From Pseudoglutamicibacter albus (lineage in GTDB: Bacteria > Actinomycetota > Actinomycetes > Actinomycetales > Micrococcaceae), in contig NZ_JAKRCW010000001.1 in NCBI RefSeq assembly GCF_022346425.1, positions 124,001 to 188,000 on the forward strand: a DNA stretch of 64,000 bases, in the 5' to 3' direction. Positions 35,856-43,095 of this stretch are shown piece by piece. Numbering within the stretch: position 1 is the stretch's first letter; each line of letters begins with the position of its first letter. Under the pieces are notes generated by a model. The model was not told the DNA's origin and did not search any database. It was given only the letters and a program-made list of their open reading frames with translations. The translations under genes and the position numbers were made by a program.

Positions 35856-36935
35856 TCATGGTTCGCGGCCGATGGCGTGGGTGACTTCCGCTGCCGGGCG
35901 CGGCTGAATCAGGTGTGCGTTGGCGCCGGCCCAGTGTGGCGCCATTCCTGCGGAGCCGCTCTTAGCGGCCGCGGCAGACAGCGCTTTGTTCGCCGAGTAG
36001 GCGACGGGGAAGACCGGCGGGGTTGGCGCATCGGGCGCTTCAGCGAACTCCATAAACGCGGTAGGCAACCCGCGGGCTGGCCGCCCCGAGAACACGCGAG
36101 TCAAGCGAGTTTCAGCGCCGCCGCTTGCGTGCTGAGCGGCGTGCGCGGCTTGAACTAGAGCCTCACGGTAGGAATCTTTGGCCCCGGATTCGGGGCTCGT
36201 GATGAGTGCGGTGCCGACCTGAACGGCGGAAGCCCCTAGGCTGAACATGTGCTCGGCGCGTTCGCGGGTCATGATGCCGCCCGCTGCGACCACAGGCAGC
36301 TGTGTTGCTGAGGCGATCTGCTGAACGAGGCGCCCGGTAGGGGTCTGTTCATCGGGGCCGTTTTCGTCGAAGATTCCTCGGTGCCCGCCGGCCTCGATCC
36401 CTTGGGCGATGACCACATCCAAGCCCGCTTCCTCGATTACGCGCGCCTCAGCCTGGCTAGTGGCGGAAGCCATCAACAGGGTGCCGGCTTCGTGCAGTGC
36501 GTTGATGGTTGCGACGTCGGGGACACCGAAGTGGAAACTGACCACGGCGGGTTTTTCGTCCACGAGTAGTTGGAGCAGCGCGGTATCGCCGAGGAACGAT
36601 TCATAGGACGGGCTGAGCTCTGCTGGCGGTTGGGTGCCGAGCGAGCGAAAGAGAGGGGCCAAGTAGTCGAGCCATGCGGACTCGACGGCGGGGTCCCGGT
36701 GAGGTTCGGCGTGACAGAAGAAGTTCAGGTTGAATGGCCGGGTGGTGAGGGCTTTAAGTTCGCGGATGGCCTCGCGAACCTGGTCAACGTTCTTACCCGC
36801 CAAACCAAGTGATCCGAGCCCGCCTGCGTTGCTGACCGCCGCGACGAGTTGCGGGGTGGAGGTGCCGGCCATCGGCGCACCAATGAACGGCAGTTCGATT
36901 CCGGTGAGGTCAGTGAAAGCGCTTGGGTTCCGCAA
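35856..36935 (-). CDS. Nitronate monooxygenase (2-nitropropane dioxygenase family)
   Basis: 359 aa, TTG start at 36935 with GAGGAG six bases before it. FMN TIM barrel: PFIGAPMAGTSTPQLVAAVSN, NAGGLGSLGLAG, catalytic His in GIEAGGHRGIFD, PVVAAGGIMTRE, and phosphate loop LGASAVQVGTALI. Oxidises alkyl nitronates such as propionate-3-nitronate, a detoxification role. Divergent from the nuclease/helicase pair. Confidence 0.88.
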   Translation of the reverse strand: MRNPSAFTDLTGIELPFIGAPMAGTSTPQLVAAVSNAGGLGSLGLAGKNVDQVREAIRELKALTTRPFNLNFFCHAEPHRDPAVESAWLDYLAPLFRSLGTQPPAELSPSYESFLGDTALLQLLVDEKPAVVSFHFGVPDVATINALHEAGTLLMASATSQAEARVIEEAGLDVVIAQGIEAGGHRGIFDENGPDEQTPTGRLVQQIASATQLPVVAAGGIMTRERAEHMFSLGASAVQVGTALITSPESGAKDSYREALVQAAHAAQHASGGAETRLTRVFSGRPARGLPTAFMEFAEAPDAPTPPVFPVAYSANKALSAAAAKSGSAGMAPHWAGANAHLIQPRPAAEVTHAIGREP

Positions 36936-37128
36936 CGTGGGCTCCTCGGCGTATCGCGTGGTGTTGGATGTTTGCTGGGTGTTGGCTATTCCAACTGTGC
37001 CATGCGGCGGGGCCCGGGTGGGAAACTTCGCGACGCTGTCAGGTACTGCGGAGGCCGGGGGCGGTGACGTAGGTTAGGTGAGGTCACCGCGGGCTGGCCG
37101 CGGTGTGTGTTTCAGGAGCCTGAACGAT

Positions 37129-38046
37129 ATGGCCACACCGACGTCGATTGAGTTGTTCCTCGCCGATGGGACCCCGGGCGGCCTGATTGCCGCGGAAATT
37201 TCCGGGTGGACCGGCAAGATCATCGCCGCGCCGCGGCAGTCGCTGAGCGCGATGCTGGCCCGTGAAGAGGCGCAGTCAAACGGCGTCTACATACTCTTGG
37301 GCGAAGACGCCGAATCCATTAACAACACGTGGTGCTACATCGGCAGGTCGGAGAATTTCGCGGAGCGGTTGCGTAACCATCACGCGAATAAACCCAAGTG
37401 GCAGCGGGCCATCATCATCCTGAGCCTGCACCATTCCTTCAACGAAGGGCACTGGGGATACATGGAAGCCAAGCTGCTGCAGATGGCGCGGAAGGCCGGC
37501 CGGTGCAGCTTGGATGAGAACAAGAACAACCCGCGCTCTCGGAAGCTGTCCGAATCGCAAGAGGCTTCCGTCAACGATTTCATTCGCAAAGTGAAGTTGA
37601 TTTTGCCGATGCTGGGCGTGAACATCTTGCGGTCCGCTGTCGGGGAGGAAAGCGCGACGCCTTCCGTTCAGCGTGGGGTCAAGGATGAATCGCCGCTGTT
37701 TACGCTGGTGCACCCGAGCCGTGGTGTGGATGCGCAGATGCGGCCGGTGGATGGCGAACTGTTCGTGCTGGAAGGTTCGCGCCTGATCAAGCAGTGGGAC
37801 ACCAGCGCGGCGCGCTCGGAGCACACCCGCCGCAGCTATGAGGCGTTGGCACAGCAGCATCGCAAGCTGATTGCTGACGGTTCGCTACGGGTGGAGGACG
37901 ATGCGTGTGTTGCTACCCGCGACATCGTGTTCAACTCGCCGTCCACGGCGGCGGCGATATGCCTCGGCCGTAGTAGTAACGGCCGGACGGCCTGGAAAAC
38001 CAGTGACGGAATGACGTACGCGCAGTGGGAAGCCGCCGCGCAGTAG
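37129..38046 (+). CDS. GIY-YIG nuclease-family protein with DUF4357 C-terminus
   Basis: 305 aa from ATG 37129 (CAGGAG upstream). Residues ~48-130 form a GIY-YIG domain: GVYILLGE as the GIY strand, CYIGRSENFAERLRNH with YIG and the catalytic Arg, and GYMEAKLLQMA with the metal-binding Glu. The C-terminal ~80 residues (SYEALAQQHRKLIADGSLR, AAAICLGRSSNGRTAWKT) match the DUF4357 module common to restriction-like nucleases. It ends 28 bp before the helicase gene. A phage-defence or DNA-processing pair is inferred from domain types, not from known function. Confidence 0.82.
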   Translation: MATPTSIELFLADGTPGGLIAAEISGWTGKIIAAPRQSLSAMLAREEAQSNGVYILLGEDAESINNTWCYIGRSENFAERLRNHHANKPKWQRAIIILSLHHSFNEGHWGYMEAKLLQMARKAGRCSLDENKNNPRSRKLSESQEASVNDFIRKVKLILPMLGVNILRSAVGEESATPSVQRGVKDESPLFTLVHPSRGVDAQMRPVDGELFVLEGSRLIKQWDTSAARSEHTRRSYEALAQQHRKLIADGSLRVEDDACVATRDIVFNSPSTAAAICLGRSSNGRTAWKTSDGMTYAQWEAAAQ

Positions 38047-38074
38047 CGGTGGCGTGAGGAATGAGGCAACACCG

Positions 38075-41000
38075 ATGAGTGATGAGTTTGTGGACCCTCT
38101 TTTGGTAGGTCTGCGTGAAGACCTGGTCACTAGTGACCTGCGGCGCGCACTGGATGCGACGGCGCTTGAAACTCAGATTGCTAAGGTTGACAAGGCCGAT
38201 TTCCCGCACGTCGCAGCCCGTTTTGTTGCAGAACGCCTCAAGCAGGAACTCCAGCTAATCAGCGGCGCAGAAGAACGCATCGAATTCGTGAACCGACTTC
38301 TGGCAACCATGAATTCCGTGAACCACGGAGACCACATCGAAGGGCCGGAACCTCAGCAACTATTGAGTACCGCTAAGCCCCCGCACGCGGCACCGCAGTC
38401 ACCGTCAATTCCGATCTCCGAGGTCGCCTTACTGACGAATGCGCAAGGCGACCCCCGCCTTGGCCCGGAGCTCAAAACCGAAATGCTCAGCGCTGACGCC
38501 GTCGACGTGGTGATGTCCTTTGTTCGCTGGTCCGGCATCCGGCTGATCGCTCAGGAACTCCAAGAGCTCAACCGGCGCGGAGTCCCGGTCCGCCTCCTCA
38601 CTACTACTTATATGGGTGCAACCGAGAAACGCGCGCTGGACTATCTGGTGAATGAGTGCGGCGCCGAAGTCCGCATCAGTTACGACACCCAAACCACCCG
38701 GCTGCACGCCAAAGCATGGGTCTTCCGCCGCAACACCGGCTTTCACACCGGCTACATCGGCAGCTCCAACCTCAGTAAAGCGGCGATGGTGGACGGGCTC
38801 GAATGGAACGTGCGGGTCTCCAACATCCAGACCCCAGCGTTGGTTGAAAAGTTCGAGGCCACGTTCGAAAGCTACTGGCAGTCGCCGATCTTCGAACCCT
38901 ACATCCCTGAAAAGGATGGGGAACGACTCCAGCAAGCACTCAACAACGGCGCCGCGGACAAGGTTCCGGACTCGCTGTTGGCCACGAACCTGGATGTTCG
39001 CCCGTACCCGCACCAGGCGATCATCCTGGACGATCTCCAACACGAACGCGAAGTCCTCAACCGTCACCGCAACCTTGTGGTTGCGGCCACCGGTATCGGT
39101 AAGACCGTGATCGCCGCGCTGGACTATCGCCGCCTATGCGAAAACACCAAGGGCCCGCGTCCGCGGTTGCTGTTCGTGGCGCATCGTCGTGAAATCCTGG
39201 AGCAATCCCTGCGAACCTTCCGAGACGTGCTGGGTGACGGCTCTTTCGGCGAGCTGTTGCGCGGGAACTACCGGCCTACCAAGTGGGACCATGTGTTCGC
39301 GTCCATCCAGACGCTGTCTCAGGAAACGGTCTACACCAAGCTGGACCGTGATCACTTCGATGTGGTGATCATCGACGAATTCCACCACAGCGCAGGCGCT
39401 ACGTACGAACGCGTCATCAAGCATTTCGATGGGTGCAAAGAGTTCCTGGGGCTGACCGCAACCCCTGAGCGGATGGACGGCCAGAACATCGCGGCCGAAT
39501 ACTTTGACGGCCGGATCGCGAGCGGACTCCGGCTCTGGACGGCTTTGGACAACGACCTTCTGGTTCCTTTCCACTACTTCGGCATCGCCGATGGTGTGGA
39601 CTTGTCCGGTGCCCAGTTCAGCGCCGGCGGCTACAGGGTTGCAGACCTGGACCGTCTCTATACCGGCAACGATCAGCGCGCTAAGAAAATCATCCAAGCC
39701 ACCCGCGAGATCGTGACCGACACCGGCAACATGAAAGCCCTCGGCTTCTGCGTCTCCGTTGACCACGCCACCTACATGGCCGAGGTTTTCAACCAGGCCG
39801 GCATCGCATCCGGCGTTGTCACGGGCAAGACCTCACGCGAGGACCGCGACCAAGCGATCAAACGGCTAGCCACAGGCGAACTCAACTGCCTCATGGCGGT
39901 CGATGTTTTCAACGAGGGCTTCGACCTGCCAGCCATCGACACGGTCCTGATGATGCGGCCCACCCAGTCCGCGACCATCTTCATCCAGCAGCTGGGGCGC
40001 GGCCTGCGCCGAGCGAAGAACAAGAGCGTCTTGACGGTTCTGGATTTCGTAGGGCACCAGCACAAAAACTTCCGTTTCGACATCAAACTACACGCACTCA
40101 CCGGCCAAGACCGGAAACAGTTGCAGCGGTCGGCGGAACACAACTTCCCGGTGCTGCCGGCGGGATGCCAGATTGTGCTCGATGAGGTCACGCAGAAGGA
40201 GGTTGTCGCTAACCTTCGGAGCCAGGTGACGATGAGCACCAAGGACTTCCTGGTGGATGTGCGACAGATGAGCACGGCGGCTGAGGTGAAGGCTGGCCTG
40301 CACCTCAAGGACTATTTGGAGCGGTCTGATCGTGACCTGCCGTCGGTATATAAACCGGGCGCGACCCGAACATACCTCGGCGATAAAGGCCCGAACGCTT
40401 GGGTTCAATATGAAGCGTGGGCGAATGATCGGAGCTCGTTCCGTCCGAGCGAAGCCGAAAGCAAGCTGCTGCAGCGAGCCAACAAGTTTGTGCACGTGGA
40501 TGACCCAGCCCGTTTTGAGGGATATCTGCGAGTATTGAACAGCGGCAAGGTCACGCCTGAGTTGCTGCAGGATCCGCTGGCGTTGATGCTGTATTACTCG
40601 TTCTGGCCGTCTGGTCATGAGAAGGGACTGGCCGCTGGGATGGCGGAGCTTCTGAACGCTCGGTTTGTGAGGGAAGAGCTGGCGCAGATCATGCAGTTCC
40701 GGGAAGTGGTTTCGAGGGTCGTCCCGCGGCCACTATCCGGCGGTCTTGAGACCCAACCCATCCGAAGCCACGCGACATATACGCGTGAGGAGCTGCTCGC
40801 GGGCCTGGGTGTGGGGTCGCTGAACTCGGAGAAGCCCGGCAGTATCCGCGAAGGCGTGAAGTGGATTCCGGAACTGCAGACGGATGTGTTGCTGGTGACG
40901 TTGAAGAAGTCGGAGGCCGACTATTCGCCGACCACGATGTATCACGACTACGCGTTGACGGACACGCTGTTCCATTGGGAATCGCAAAGCCTCACTCGGG

Positions 41001-41227
41001 AAGCGTCGCCTACCGGGCAGCGCTACATCAACCACGAATCGGAAGGCTCTAATGTGGTGCTGTTTGTCCGCAAGGCGAAGAACGGTGAGATCGGAACGGA
41101 GCCGTACACGTGCCTCGGTAACGCCCGCTATGTGAAGCATTCAGGGGAGAAGCCGATGCAGATCATTTGGGAGCTTGAACGCCCGATGCCTGCGAGCTTA
41201 TTCGAAATCGCACGCGCAGCAAAATAG
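38075..41227 (+). CDS. PLD-like / SF2 helicase / DUF3427 protein
   Basis: 1050 aa. Domains: N-terminal helical region; PLD-like nuclease domain (~140-280) with RLHAKAWVF and YIGSSNLSKAAM (HxK and GSxN, but the Asp of HKD is not obvious); SF2 DEAD/H helicase with VAATGIGKTVIA (~335), IIDEFHHSAG, LTATPERMDG and motif VI QQLGRGLRRAKNK (~640); then a ~350-residue DUF3427 end (RFEGYLRVLNSGK, YEAWANDRSSFR, MYHDYALTDTLFHWESQS). This architecture is widespread in mobile and defence loci. It follows the GIY-YIG gene directly, so the two probably act together on foreign or damaged DNA. Confidence 0.88.
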   Translation: MSDEFVDPLLVGLREDLVTSDLRRALDATALETQIAKVDKADFPHVAARFVAERLKQELQLISGAEERIEFVNRLLATMNSVNHGDHIEGPEPQQLLSTAKPPHAAPQSPSIPISEVALLTNAQGDPRLGPELKTEMLSADAVDVVMSFVRWSGIRLIAQELQELNRRGVPVRLLTTTYMGATEKRALDYLVNECGAEVRISYDTQTTRLHAKAWVFRRNTGFHTGYIGSSNLSKAAMVDGLEWNVRVSNIQTPALVEKFEATFESYWQSPIFEPYIPEKDGERLQQALNNGAADKVPDSLLATNLDVRPYPHQAIILDDLQHEREVLNRHRNLVVAATGIGKTVIAALDYRRLCENTKGPRPRLLFVAHRREILEQSLRTFRDVLGDGSFGELLRGNYRPTKWDHVFASIQTLSQETVYTKLDRDHFDVVIIDEFHHSAGATYERVIKHFDGCKEFLGLTATPERMDGQNIAAEYFDGRIASGLRLWTALDNDLLVPFHYFGIADGVDLSGAQFSAGGYRVADLDRLYTGNDQRAKKIIQATREIVTDTGNMKALGFCVSVDHATYMAEVFNQAGIASGVVTGKTSREDRDQAIKRLATGELNCLMAVDVFNEGFDLPAIDTVLMMRPTQSATIFIQQLGRGLRRAKNKSVLTVLDFVGHQHKNFRFDIKLHALTGQDRKQLQRSAEHNFPVLPAGCQIVLDEVTQKEVVANLRSQVTMSTKDFLVDVRQMSTAAEVKAGLHLKDYLERSDRDLPSVYKPGATRTYLGDKGPNAWVQYEAWANDRSSFRPSEAESKLLQRANKFVHVDDPARFEGYLRVLNSGKVTPELLQDPLALMLYYSFWPSGHEKGLAAGMAELLNARFVREELAQIMQFREVVSRVVPRPLSGGLETQPIRSHATYTREELLAGLGVGSLNSEKPGSIREGVKWIPELQTDVLLVTLKKSEADYSPTTMYHDYALTDTLFHWESQSLTREASPTGQRYINHESEGSNVVLFVRKAKNGEIGTEPYTCLGNARYVKHSGEKPMQIIWELERPMPASLFEIARAAK

Positions 41228-41310: not shown

Positions 41311-43095
41311 GTGCCCATCACCCGCTCCATCCACGCGACCGCCGCCAAGCATCCCGAACGGCCCGCCATCACCACCAGCAACCGTTCCCTCACCTACCGC
41401 GAACTCGTGCGCGAAAGCCGCCACACCATCGCCGCCGCCAGCTGGCTGCACCGCAAAGTGCGGTTGGAAACACAGCCGACGACGAGGCGGGCTGCGTCGG
41501 TAGGTGCGGCTGCGGTGGCGGGGCGGACTGGTTCGGCGGGGAAAGCTGAGCTAGCGGCGCGGCCGGTGACCGCGGTATGCACCGCATCGGCGTTTGCGGC
41601 AGCACGGATCATGGCGGCGCTCGCCGGCACCGACCACATCTTCGCCGCGATTGACCCACGCTGGCCGGCCGAACACCAACGCAACATCGTCCTCGCGGCG
41701 GGCATCGGCGTAGTGATCGTCGATGACACGCAAGCCGCCACAACCCTCCGTAGCTCCCTCGGTACAGACTGGGGCGGGGTCATCTGCACGATGCCGGAGT
41801 TCCGCAACCTCGAACACACGGCTGCTACTGACAGCGGCGAAGCAGGGGACAGCACTACGGGAGACGGTGCGGCCGGTGTTGCTGATGTTGCGGAGCGCCG
41901 CCCCGACACTTCTCGTCCCGATTCTGAGCCGTTCCTGATGCTGTTCTCCTCCGGGACCACCGCCGCGCCGAAAGCGTTCCTCAAGACCCGCGGGCAATAC
42001 CGGGCGAACCTCGCCGTCTCCAAGCGGCACCTCGGGCTGGGGCCTGGCGTGGTCACGTTCGCTCCGGGACCATTCGCGTACTCGCTCACCCTCTACGCCG
42101 CGGTCGAAACACTCGCAACCGGCGGCACCATCCACCTCGCAAGCAACACTGACACTCTCACGTTGGCCGGCCTGGGGGAGCGAGTCGCGCGCGAAAACAT
42201 CACCCGCATCGTGACCGTTCCCGCGATGCTGCGCGGCATCATCACCCAAGCCACCCGCACGCCTGAACAGTTTGCAGACCTGGACCTCATCGTCGTGGGC
42301 GGCGCCGACCTCCCCGAAAACCTCCGCAACGAGCTCGCCGCCGTGCTCCCTCACACCGAACTCATCAGCTACTACGGGGCCGCGGAAATCGGGTTCATCG
42401 GCCAAGGAATCCCCGACCACCCCGGCTGGCACGAGGTCTACGACGGGGTGGAGGTCCAGATCCGCAGCGAGGACGGGGAGCCCATGCCCGATGGTGAACT
42501 GGGCACAATCTGGGTGCGGGCCGCATCGTGCTCGGACGGGTATGTGGTCGGCGGCGGCCCTATGGATGGCGGCGGTGCTGGCAGTGACAATGCTGACGGT
42601 TCTGCCAGCCGCCTGCTGGATGAGCACGGATGGGCGAGCGTCGGCGACCAAGGCCGCGTCCGCATCGTGGACGGTCGGCAGCAGGTCCAGGTTGTCGGCC
42701 GGGCCGGAGACACCATCAACACTGGCGGCCACAAAGTCGCACTCCCGGAAGTGACTCGCGCCTACGCCGGCCTCACCGTGGATGGACAGGCGTTCGAGGC
42801 TGTTGCGGTGGGGCTGCCGGATGCGACGCTTGGGACGGTGCTCGCGCTCGCCGTCGAAGACTCCGGACTGGGGACCGGGGGCGGTGGCGCCCGCGTCAAC
42901 CCCCGCCTGACCAAGGCCGCGCTGCGTGAGTGGGGTCGCGCGCGGTTGGCGCCGCAATTCGTTCCAGCACAGTATTACGTGGTGTCGCGGATACCGCGAA
43001 CCGTGGGCGGCAAGGTCAAGACCGCTGAACTCGCCGAACTGCTCCGCTCCGGCGCGACAGCCCGAACAAGCAGCGAAGGAGTGCAACGCTTGTGA
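41311..43095 (+). CDS. AMP-binding acyl/aryl-acid ligase
   Basis: 594-aa ANL-superfamily adenylating enzyme. The ATP-loop is FLMLFSSGTTAAPKAFLKTR, then SYYGAAEIGFIGQG, GELGTIWVRA, WASVGDQGRV and a C-terminal Lys in RTVGGKVKTAEL. It should activate a carboxylic acid to acyl-AMP and then acyl-CoA or acyl-ACP. Long Ala/Gly-rich insertions (~residues 55-90, 180-205) enlarge it. A TAGGCT (41299-41304) six bases before GTG 41311 and a TTGCAA upstream suggest leaderless transcription. Overlaps the ketosynthase gene by 4 bp. Confidence 0.83.
   Translation: MPITRSIHATAAKHPERPAITTSNRSLTYRELVRESRHTIAAASWLHRKVRLETQPTTRRAASVGAAAVAGRTGSAGKAELAARPVTAVCTASAFAAARIMAALAGTDHIFAAIDPRWPAEHQRNIVLAAGIGVVIVDDTQAATTLRSSLGTDWGGVICTMPEFRNLEHTAATDSGEAGDSTTGDGAAGVADVAERRPDTSRPDSEPFLMLFSSGTTAAPKAFLKTRGQYRANLAVSKRHLGLGPGVVTFAPGPFAYSLTLYAAVETLATGGTIHLASNTDTLTLAGLGERVARENITRIVTVPAMLRGIITQATRTPEQFADLDLIVVGGADLPENLRNELAAVLPHTELISYYGAAEIGFIGQGIPDHPGWHEVYDGVEVQIRSEDGEPMPDGELGTIWVRAASCSDGYVVGGGPMDGGGAGSDNADGSASRLLDEHGWASVGDQGRVRIVDGRQQVQVVGRAGDTINTGGHKVALPEVTRAYAGLTVDGQAFEAVAVGLPDATLGTVLALAVEDSGLGTGGGGARVNPRLTKAALREWGRARLAPQFVPAQYYVVSRIPRTVGGKVKTAELAELLRSGATARTSSEGVQRL

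Follow-up and report, generated by a model that had tools for sequence, protein, structure and literature searches.

The closest described relative of the large protein considered here is SauUSI, the Type IV ATP-dependent restriction enzyme of Staphylococcus aureus (PDB 7clg), in which a PLD nuclease, an SF2 helicase, a coupler and an SRA domain follow each other in a single chain and which acts as a single protein according to PMC7913695. PLD and SF2 parts are also brought together in CglI and NgoAVII, but there they are split into R and H subunits and a B3 domain serves as the reader (PMC7913695). Among the GIY-YIG nucleases, enzymes with a winged-helix reader of N6-methyladenine (6mA) were tested in a study of 2024 (PMC11037411), whereas the GIY-YIG-RAMA fusions are mentioned there in a putative role only, as possibly used like the winged-helix fusions. 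Here, we analyzed a 64,000-nucleotide stretch of Pseudoglutamicibacter albus (Micrococcaceae; NCBI RefSeq assembly GCF_022346425.1, contig NZ_JAKRCW010000001.1, positions 124,001 to 188,000), referred to as the window, in which a gene for a GIY-YIG/DUF4357 protein of 305 amino acids (37129..38046, + strand) precedes a gene for a PLD-helicase-DUF3427 protein of 1050 amino acids (38075..41227, + strand). In our opinion, these genes quite probably represent two restriction modules that lie at a defence hot spot, are separable and do not need each other, and their neighbourhood is a local pairing rather than a new two-gene system.

The large protein shows the Pfam domains PLDc_2 (E 3.3e-12), ResIII, Helicase_C and DUF3427, each above its cut-off, and the coordinates and domains of both genes given by the initial annotation, including the 28 bp between the stop of the GIY-YIG gene and the ATG of the second gene, were confirmed. 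The list of open reading frames (ORFs) offers an alternative GTG start at 38054 beside the ATG at 38075. In PADLOC, the protein is assigned to mREase_IV (PDLC03659, E 4.9e-296, residues 109-1053 numbered from GTG). The closest solved chain found in a PDB search was 7clg, and a profile of 23 sequences could be aligned with it over nearly the full length (E 3.5e-117, 119-1021 to 29-919). The large protein is thus not a nameless one, but belongs to the known kind of SauUSI-type Type IV restriction enzymes, with PLD, SF2, coupler and SRA parts likewise arranged in one chain. Its PLD nuclease domain (38540..38878, + strand) contains the HxK pair H211 and K213, numbered from the ATG at 38075, which aligns with H119 and K121 of SauUSI, and is followed by the SF2 helicase-like ATPase (ResIII and Helicase_C in Pfam; 38999..40009, + strand). 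The residues H211, K213, K343, D434, E435, W930, D958 and W968 are invariant in 23/23 profile-found relatives. In a larger set of 77 sequences, comprising the window and 76 of 80 fetched loci, the Walker A lysine K343 and the DE box residues D434 and E435 are likewise invariant (77/77); the HxK pair was counted in the 23 profile-found sequences only, since the frames of the larger set were preselected by LHAKAW and the underlying 80 loci came from a peptide scan whose patterns include TRLHAKAW. The family is large, with at least 580 relatives in the scanned genome contigs and a match of more than 800 bits in 78/295 Micrococcaceae genomes, and its actinobacterial branch can be firmly placed in the SauUSI family, even though the sequences are distant (19% identity over 134 SRA residues).

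One rejected alternative concerned DUF3427, which could be taken for an unknown extra domain. This was ruled out by the profile alignment and by a structural match, according to which the domain end corresponds to an SRA reader. The AlphaFold2 (AF2) model of the C-terminal 191 residues, based on 53 sequences, reached a predicted local distance difference test (pLDDT) score of 87.2, and a structure search with this model listed SauUSI first (Foldseek E 3.9e-5; Z 13.2, 134 residues, root-mean-square deviation 2.8, 19% identity), followed by SUVH5/6 solved with methylated DNA (Z 9.3-9.9) and then by MspJI, ScoMcrA, AbaSI, PvuRts1I and UHRF1. In the window, this predicted SRA-fold target-recognition domain extends over 40736..41224 (+ strand), and the alignment places W930, D958 and W968 at the positions of Y831, D858 and W868, which were proposed as the 5-methylcytosine (5mC) pocket of SauUSI (PMC7913695). 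D958 and W968 are invariant in 77/77 sequences and position 930 is W, Y or F in 75/77, so that the HxK, the pocket D and W and the SRA fold are shared with SauUSI, whereas the family to which the window protein belongs carries W (or Y/F) in place of the pocket Y831. The SRA fold points to cytosine as the base read by the large enzyme. A PF00145 search of the assembly of the window's genome found no intact C5-methyltransferase, which fits a host that must avoid 5mC at the sites of the enzyme; the sole match (G000:C28:184123-184737) covers about half of the profile, contains an in-frame stop and represents a remnant C5-methyltransferase. A separate observation in the same genome is an HsdM-like N6-methylase (PF02384) match in two pieces approximately 10 kb apart on one strand (G000:C11:199115-210724, 11-23 kb past the right end of the window), as if interrupted by an insertion.

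This anatomy, in sequence as well as in the predicted structure, provides strong support for the large enzyme acting in the manner of SauUSI. It should be mentioned that the PLD-SF2 architecture alone leaves the modification that is read unfixed, because HKD (PLD)-SF2 fusions are also found beside phosphorothioation genes (PMC10853773). The modified-cytosine substrate and the shredding of DNA are transferred from SauUSI by analogy. In the proposed mechanism, the SRA domain would flip out and read a modified cytosine (5mC or 5-hydroxymethylcytosine in SauUSI), which would switch on the SF2 motor, and during translocation of the enzyme the paired PLD active sites may cut and shred the invading DNA.

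The product of the small gene, for which an upstream GTG at 37078 is possible as start, is matched over residues 1-303 of 305 by the PADLOC candidate PDC-S14 (PDLC04923, E 1.8e-102). We take the S in this name to denote a single-gene candidate. Pfam detected DUF4357 clearly (E 2.2e-19) and GIY-YIG weakly (E 8.4e-4, 20.0 bits, below the cut-off of 22.6). Support for GIY-YIG despite the weak match comes from eight positions, G52, Y54, Y70, G72, R80, H84, E113 and N131 (residues 52-131, 37282..37521, + strand), which are invariant in 30/30 family members sharing 24-93% identity with the window protein. These are presumably the catalytic positions, and their invariance indicates that catalysis is under selection. 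When the PDB was searched with the sequence of the GIY-YIG protein, there was no useful match (best SLX1, E 0.56), a PDB sequence search with its C-terminal half gave none up to E 10, and NCBIfam gave no match either.

DUF4357 (residues 246-296, 37864..38016, + strand) resembles RAMA. The Pfam RAMA profile (PF18755) matched it with E 0.0011 and 19.3 bits, below the cut-off of 35.2, and matched 16/30 PDC-S14 members at E up to 10; an SPSxAA...NGxxxW block is common to both domains. When DUF4357 was compared by hhalign with a set of 20 RAMA domains, which was checked and recovers CcrM and MPND, the probability was 97.4% (E 1e-11) over 52 columns, corresponding to the second half of RAMA only, whereas the nuclease half as a control gave 0.4% against RAMA. 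We therefore call DUF4357 RAMA-like, not RAMA, on the basis of these profile comparisons. This link originates from the present work and not from PMC11037411, and the literature passages on DUF4357 that we consulted make none to RAMA. With the GIY-YIG-RAMA nucleases of PMC11037411, the small protein would share the fusion of a nuclease to a putative modified-base reader. In the preferred reading, the 305-amino-acid protein is an independent GIY-YIG endonuclease that probably cuts DNA recognized by its C-terminal RAMA-like module, as a second, differently aimed nuclease. Its target is probably a special context or a modification other than 6mA.

The initial annotation had itself taken rarity of the pair as an argument against a joint system, and rare it is. 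Among 295 Micrococcaceae genomes, 34 match PDC-S14 with more than 100 bits, but both genes are adjacent in only 2/295, both belonging to the genus of the window, where 2/4 genomes (the window's and G002) have the pair, which was found nowhere else in the sample. Only one of the 80 SauUSI-type loci (61 of them with at least 20 kb) has a weak, partial GIY-YIG relative nearby. In the phylum beyond this family, 14 other genomes with PDC-S14 were considered; the pair stands side by side in 0/14, and 2/14 possess a SauUSI-type match on other contigs. A conserved SauUSI plus GIY-YIG pair was ruled out by these three counts. The idea of a defence cassette is supported in part: there is good evidence for a defence function of either gene, but not for an unnamed two-gene system.

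How the two genes probably came together can be seen in the genus, since the locus is common to four genomes, the window's, G001, G002 and G003. The segment upstream of the SauUSI-type gene represents an exchangeable slot (37008..38071, no strand). In G001, which belongs to the same species, gajA (E 4.9e-232) and gajB (E 2.7e-194) are found there in place of the GIY-YIG gene, for which there is no match anywhere in the G001 genome; Gabija (GajA-GajB) thus shares the position in front of the SauUSI-type gene, whereas its proteins are unrelated and no homology is implied. G002 carries AbiEi/AbiEii upstream of an intact GIY-YIG gene, and its SauUSI-type gene is also intact. G003 possesses AbiE as well, and a GIY-YIG fragment of approximately 44 residues is left further upstream, while its SauUSI-type frame opens with the first four GIY-YIG codons, directly followed by its own start. 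The joint in G003 falls in ACACCGA, a 7-bp direct repeat that lies at both gene starts in the window (37135..37141, + strand, inside the GIY-YIG start region; 38069..38075, + strand, at the SauUSI-type start codon), which suggests a deletion by short-repeat recombination. The SauUSI-type frame is open in 4/4 genomes, hence the large gene is the constant element of the locus and can do without the small one. The G001 copy was also considered as a pseudogene, because one TGA was first reported, but its frame is open and encodes 1056 amino acids. In this G001 protein (L076 10690-13860), four residues are duplicated (GFHTGFHT) shortly after the HxK of the PLD domain, a feature present neither in the window protein nor in the other two congeners.

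The flanks had been described as unrelated metabolic genes. This is correct for the nitronate monooxygenase on the left (35856-36935, - strand) and the AMP-binding enzyme on the right (41311-43095, + strand), but it hid a defence slot that becomes visible through Gabija and AbiE in the sister genomes. That the GIY-YIG gene is swapped for Gabija at one spot is an independent argument, drawn from position, for a role in defence. As part of our preferred reading, we assume with the same degree of confidence that the pairing arose within the genus by exchange of the slot before the SauUSI-type gene.

In other bacteria, the small gene keeps different company. In difference to a single-gene candidate, members of the PDC-S14 family have Type I hsd genes nearby, as detected with Hsd reference proteins, in 33/71 sampled loci (7/30 Micrococcaceae, 10/14 phylum and 16/27 plasmid loci), compared to 0/18 random regions, and 2/71 loci are situated beside a Type ISP-like gene. 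The Fisher p value is 0.028 for 7/30 versus 0/18, and 7e-5 for 33/71 versus 0/18, the latter with an unmatched control, as the 18 random 20-kb control stretches came from Micrococcaceae genomes and were matched neither to plasmids nor to other families; one of them was chosen by hand, because the original draw had overlapped with a PDC-S14 locus. The Micrococcaceae set comprises the 34 PDC-S14 genomes less the window's, G002, and G067 and G104 with short contigs, the phylum count includes L239 at 69 bits with four of the 14 contigs under 6 kb, and the 27 plasmid loci were examined from 48 records matched at 1e-5, most near-duplicate species being skipped. The plasmid L220 is without annotation, hence its set counts 15/26 by annotation and 16/27 by tblastn. 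The Hsd references were drawn from the plasmid set, so that the plasmid count leans on itself, which does not apply to the counts for Micrococcaceae and the phylum. The nearest hsd match is within 0.5 kb in 27/33 loci and at most 2.8 kb away in the remaining ones, and lies on the other strand in one of the 33 (L232).

Among the 120 proteins encoded by the two genes on each side of the small gene in the 30 Micrococcaceae loci, called by a purpose-made ORF picker, there are 6 Type I methylase, 6 nuclease and 6 specificity matches at E <= 1e-20, counting the most frequent single PADLOC model of each kind. The 116 proteins around 29 random anchors gave no Type I matches; they did match mad3, DinG, HamB, DruE, BrxH, SngC, SspH, mad8 and PDC-M23B with one or two proteins each, chiefly helicases. 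The gene orders hsdM-hsdS-GIY-hsdR and hsdS-GIY-hsdR were found, and several loci show annotated overlaps of 1-8 bp between GIY-YIG and hsd genes. A fused restriction enzyme-methylase of 1673 amino acids (PADLOC REase_MTase_IIG/REase_MTase_I), for which Type ISP-like is our own label, is the upstream neighbour in L079, a result based on the L198 reference and PADLOC, and on a Rhodococcus plasmid a DEAD helicase of 1653 amino acids overlaps the GIY-YIG gene by 1 bp. There are no Type I genes beside the window gene; around it and its G002 counterpart, the SauUSI-type gene is the only one among the reference types. The family is thus recurrently found near or inside operons of motor-driven restriction systems, namely Type I, Type ISP-like and, here, Type IV. 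In the literature consulted on GIY-YIG with HsdR and HsdS, such adjacency is reported only for a Lactococcus garvieae plasmid, where HsdS adjoins a GIY-YIG gene and a restriction-modification-like or homing origin was guessed (PMC4420470).

The neighbourhood is also reflected in the family tree. In a tree of 72 rows, from which the short or broken L107, L222 and L261 were left out and in which four long branches are flagged, the Type I label can be explained by 16 changes compared to 23.7 after shuffling (2/500 shuffles as low), while 36/72 rows are labelled as being without a restriction partner. The window and G002 fall into a set of six rows (support 100/99), in which two of the other members are Type I-linked and two are unlinked. 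This tree is compatible with a line that was linked to Type I genes and changed its partner to the SauUSI-type gene, but does not demand such a switch.

An interaction of both proteins has nevertheless to be discussed. In a true two-gene system, the GIY-YIG protein would be a subunit or activator, e.g. by nicking or resolving DNA around the translocating SauUSI-type motor. Such an arrangement is suggested by the common strand and the 28-bp gap, by the two intact genes in G002, by the family-level co-occurrence of 15/34 and by family members overlapping other motor-driven restriction genes by 1-8 bp. However, adjacency in two genomes of one genus, a GIY-YIG gene that is absent or fragmentary in 2/4 congeners while the SauUSI-type ORF is still open, the single weak, partial match in 80 loci, the separate contigs in the 2/14 phylum genomes with both genes and the single-protein action of SauUSI (PMC7913695) make this explanation unlikely. 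We give similarly little credence to a back-up nuclease that stays quiet until a phage inhibits the neighbouring restriction enzyme and then kills the cell or the phage. PrrC-like proteins guard Type I enzymes in such a way, and GIY-YIG genes located between hsdS and hsdR with overlaps of a few bases, the AbiE genes that G002 and G003 carry at the same locus, and two plasmids with AbiE or Abi genes in the vicinity would be in line with a guard, but no sensor of the restriction status was identified in the protein and the gene also occurs without such a restriction gene nearby (36/72 tree rows).

The GIY-YIG fold is common in homing enzymes, and a free-standing homing-type endonuclease could spread itself through defence loci without any role in defence, which would explain the patchy distribution and the loss in sister genomes; a homing origin was indeed floated for the GIY-YIG gene adjoining HsdS (PMC4420470). 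Yet, the gene is rare in phages (2/50,697 records when the window protein was used in tblastn; 0 and 1 locus in two peptide-pattern scans of IMG/VR covering close relatives only), it is placed within operons together with hsd genes, and the partner label clusters on the tree, so that we regard this explanation as quite improbable. For the small protein, we infer an order of preference in which an independent nuclease with a RAMA-like reader is placed before a motor-coupled accessory, a guard and finally a homing enzyme.

Returning to two separable modules, several observations weigh against this reading or parts of it. The acidic residue of the SauUSI H(X)K(X)4E motif is R218 in the window protein, and R is found in 67/77 sequences, which is a further difference to SauUSI besides the GIY-YIG gene upstream. 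Motif I of the window copy reads ATGIGKT (residue 341, 39095-39097), whereas the three congeners have ATGTGKT, and judged from the sequence, the I at 341 could impair its ATPase. On the genome level, both families co-occur mildly above chance (15/34 versus approximately 9 expected, p 0.014, uncorrected for ancestry), also without the genus of the window (13/32, p 0.034, again uncorrected), and a true partnership would give above-chance co-occurrence as well. With respect to the small protein, no hsd, ISP-like or SauUSI gene lies near it in 36/71 loci, and its single-sequence AF2 model was poor (pLDDT 42) and not used. Moreover, RAMA is not a proven 6mA reader, as a structural study on MPND saw no 6mA preference (PMC9963953), and a general reading of 6mA by DUF4357 would endanger hosts with 6mA-making Type I systems, hence the target may be something else.

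Plasmid and phage DNA meet a strong barrier in enzymes of the SauUSI type. The pair claimed as new is ordinary, whereas the small gene and the clean natural swap are of moderate interest. The more useful result is the small gene, a defence candidate family near Type I genes with a RAMA-like reader, whose setting suggests a concrete function as a modification-aware or motor-coupled nuclease. It is tempting, though doubtful, to generalize that GIY-YIG/RAMA-like proteins serve as a shared, exchangeable accessory nuclease of SF2-motor restriction enzymes of Type I, Type ISP-like and Type IV. If true, DNA captured by the motor would be cut a second time by the accessory module or be subject to a second specificity for modifications, and the window would represent the first Type IV case.

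Finally, some minor features of the loci deserve mention. From the spacing, both window genes are probably covered by one shared transcript; a promoter scan of the locus found 0 promoters. Just upstream of the GIY-YIG gene, a hairpin with an 8-bp stem (CACCGCGGGCTGGCCGCGGTG, window 37085-37105) lies at the left border of the segment common to the window and G002. In L081 (10606-13755, - strand), the PDC-S14 gene is situated directly behind a gene for a 1050-amino-acid protein matching PADLOC ZacC (E 2.6e-301), a possible partner system. Furthermore, a short gene on the same strand lies just behind hsdR in L082-L084, L192, L228, L229 and L236; it is annotated as SprT-family zinc metalloprotease in L192, L228, L229 and L236, and its size and position in L082-L084 suggest the same identity there.

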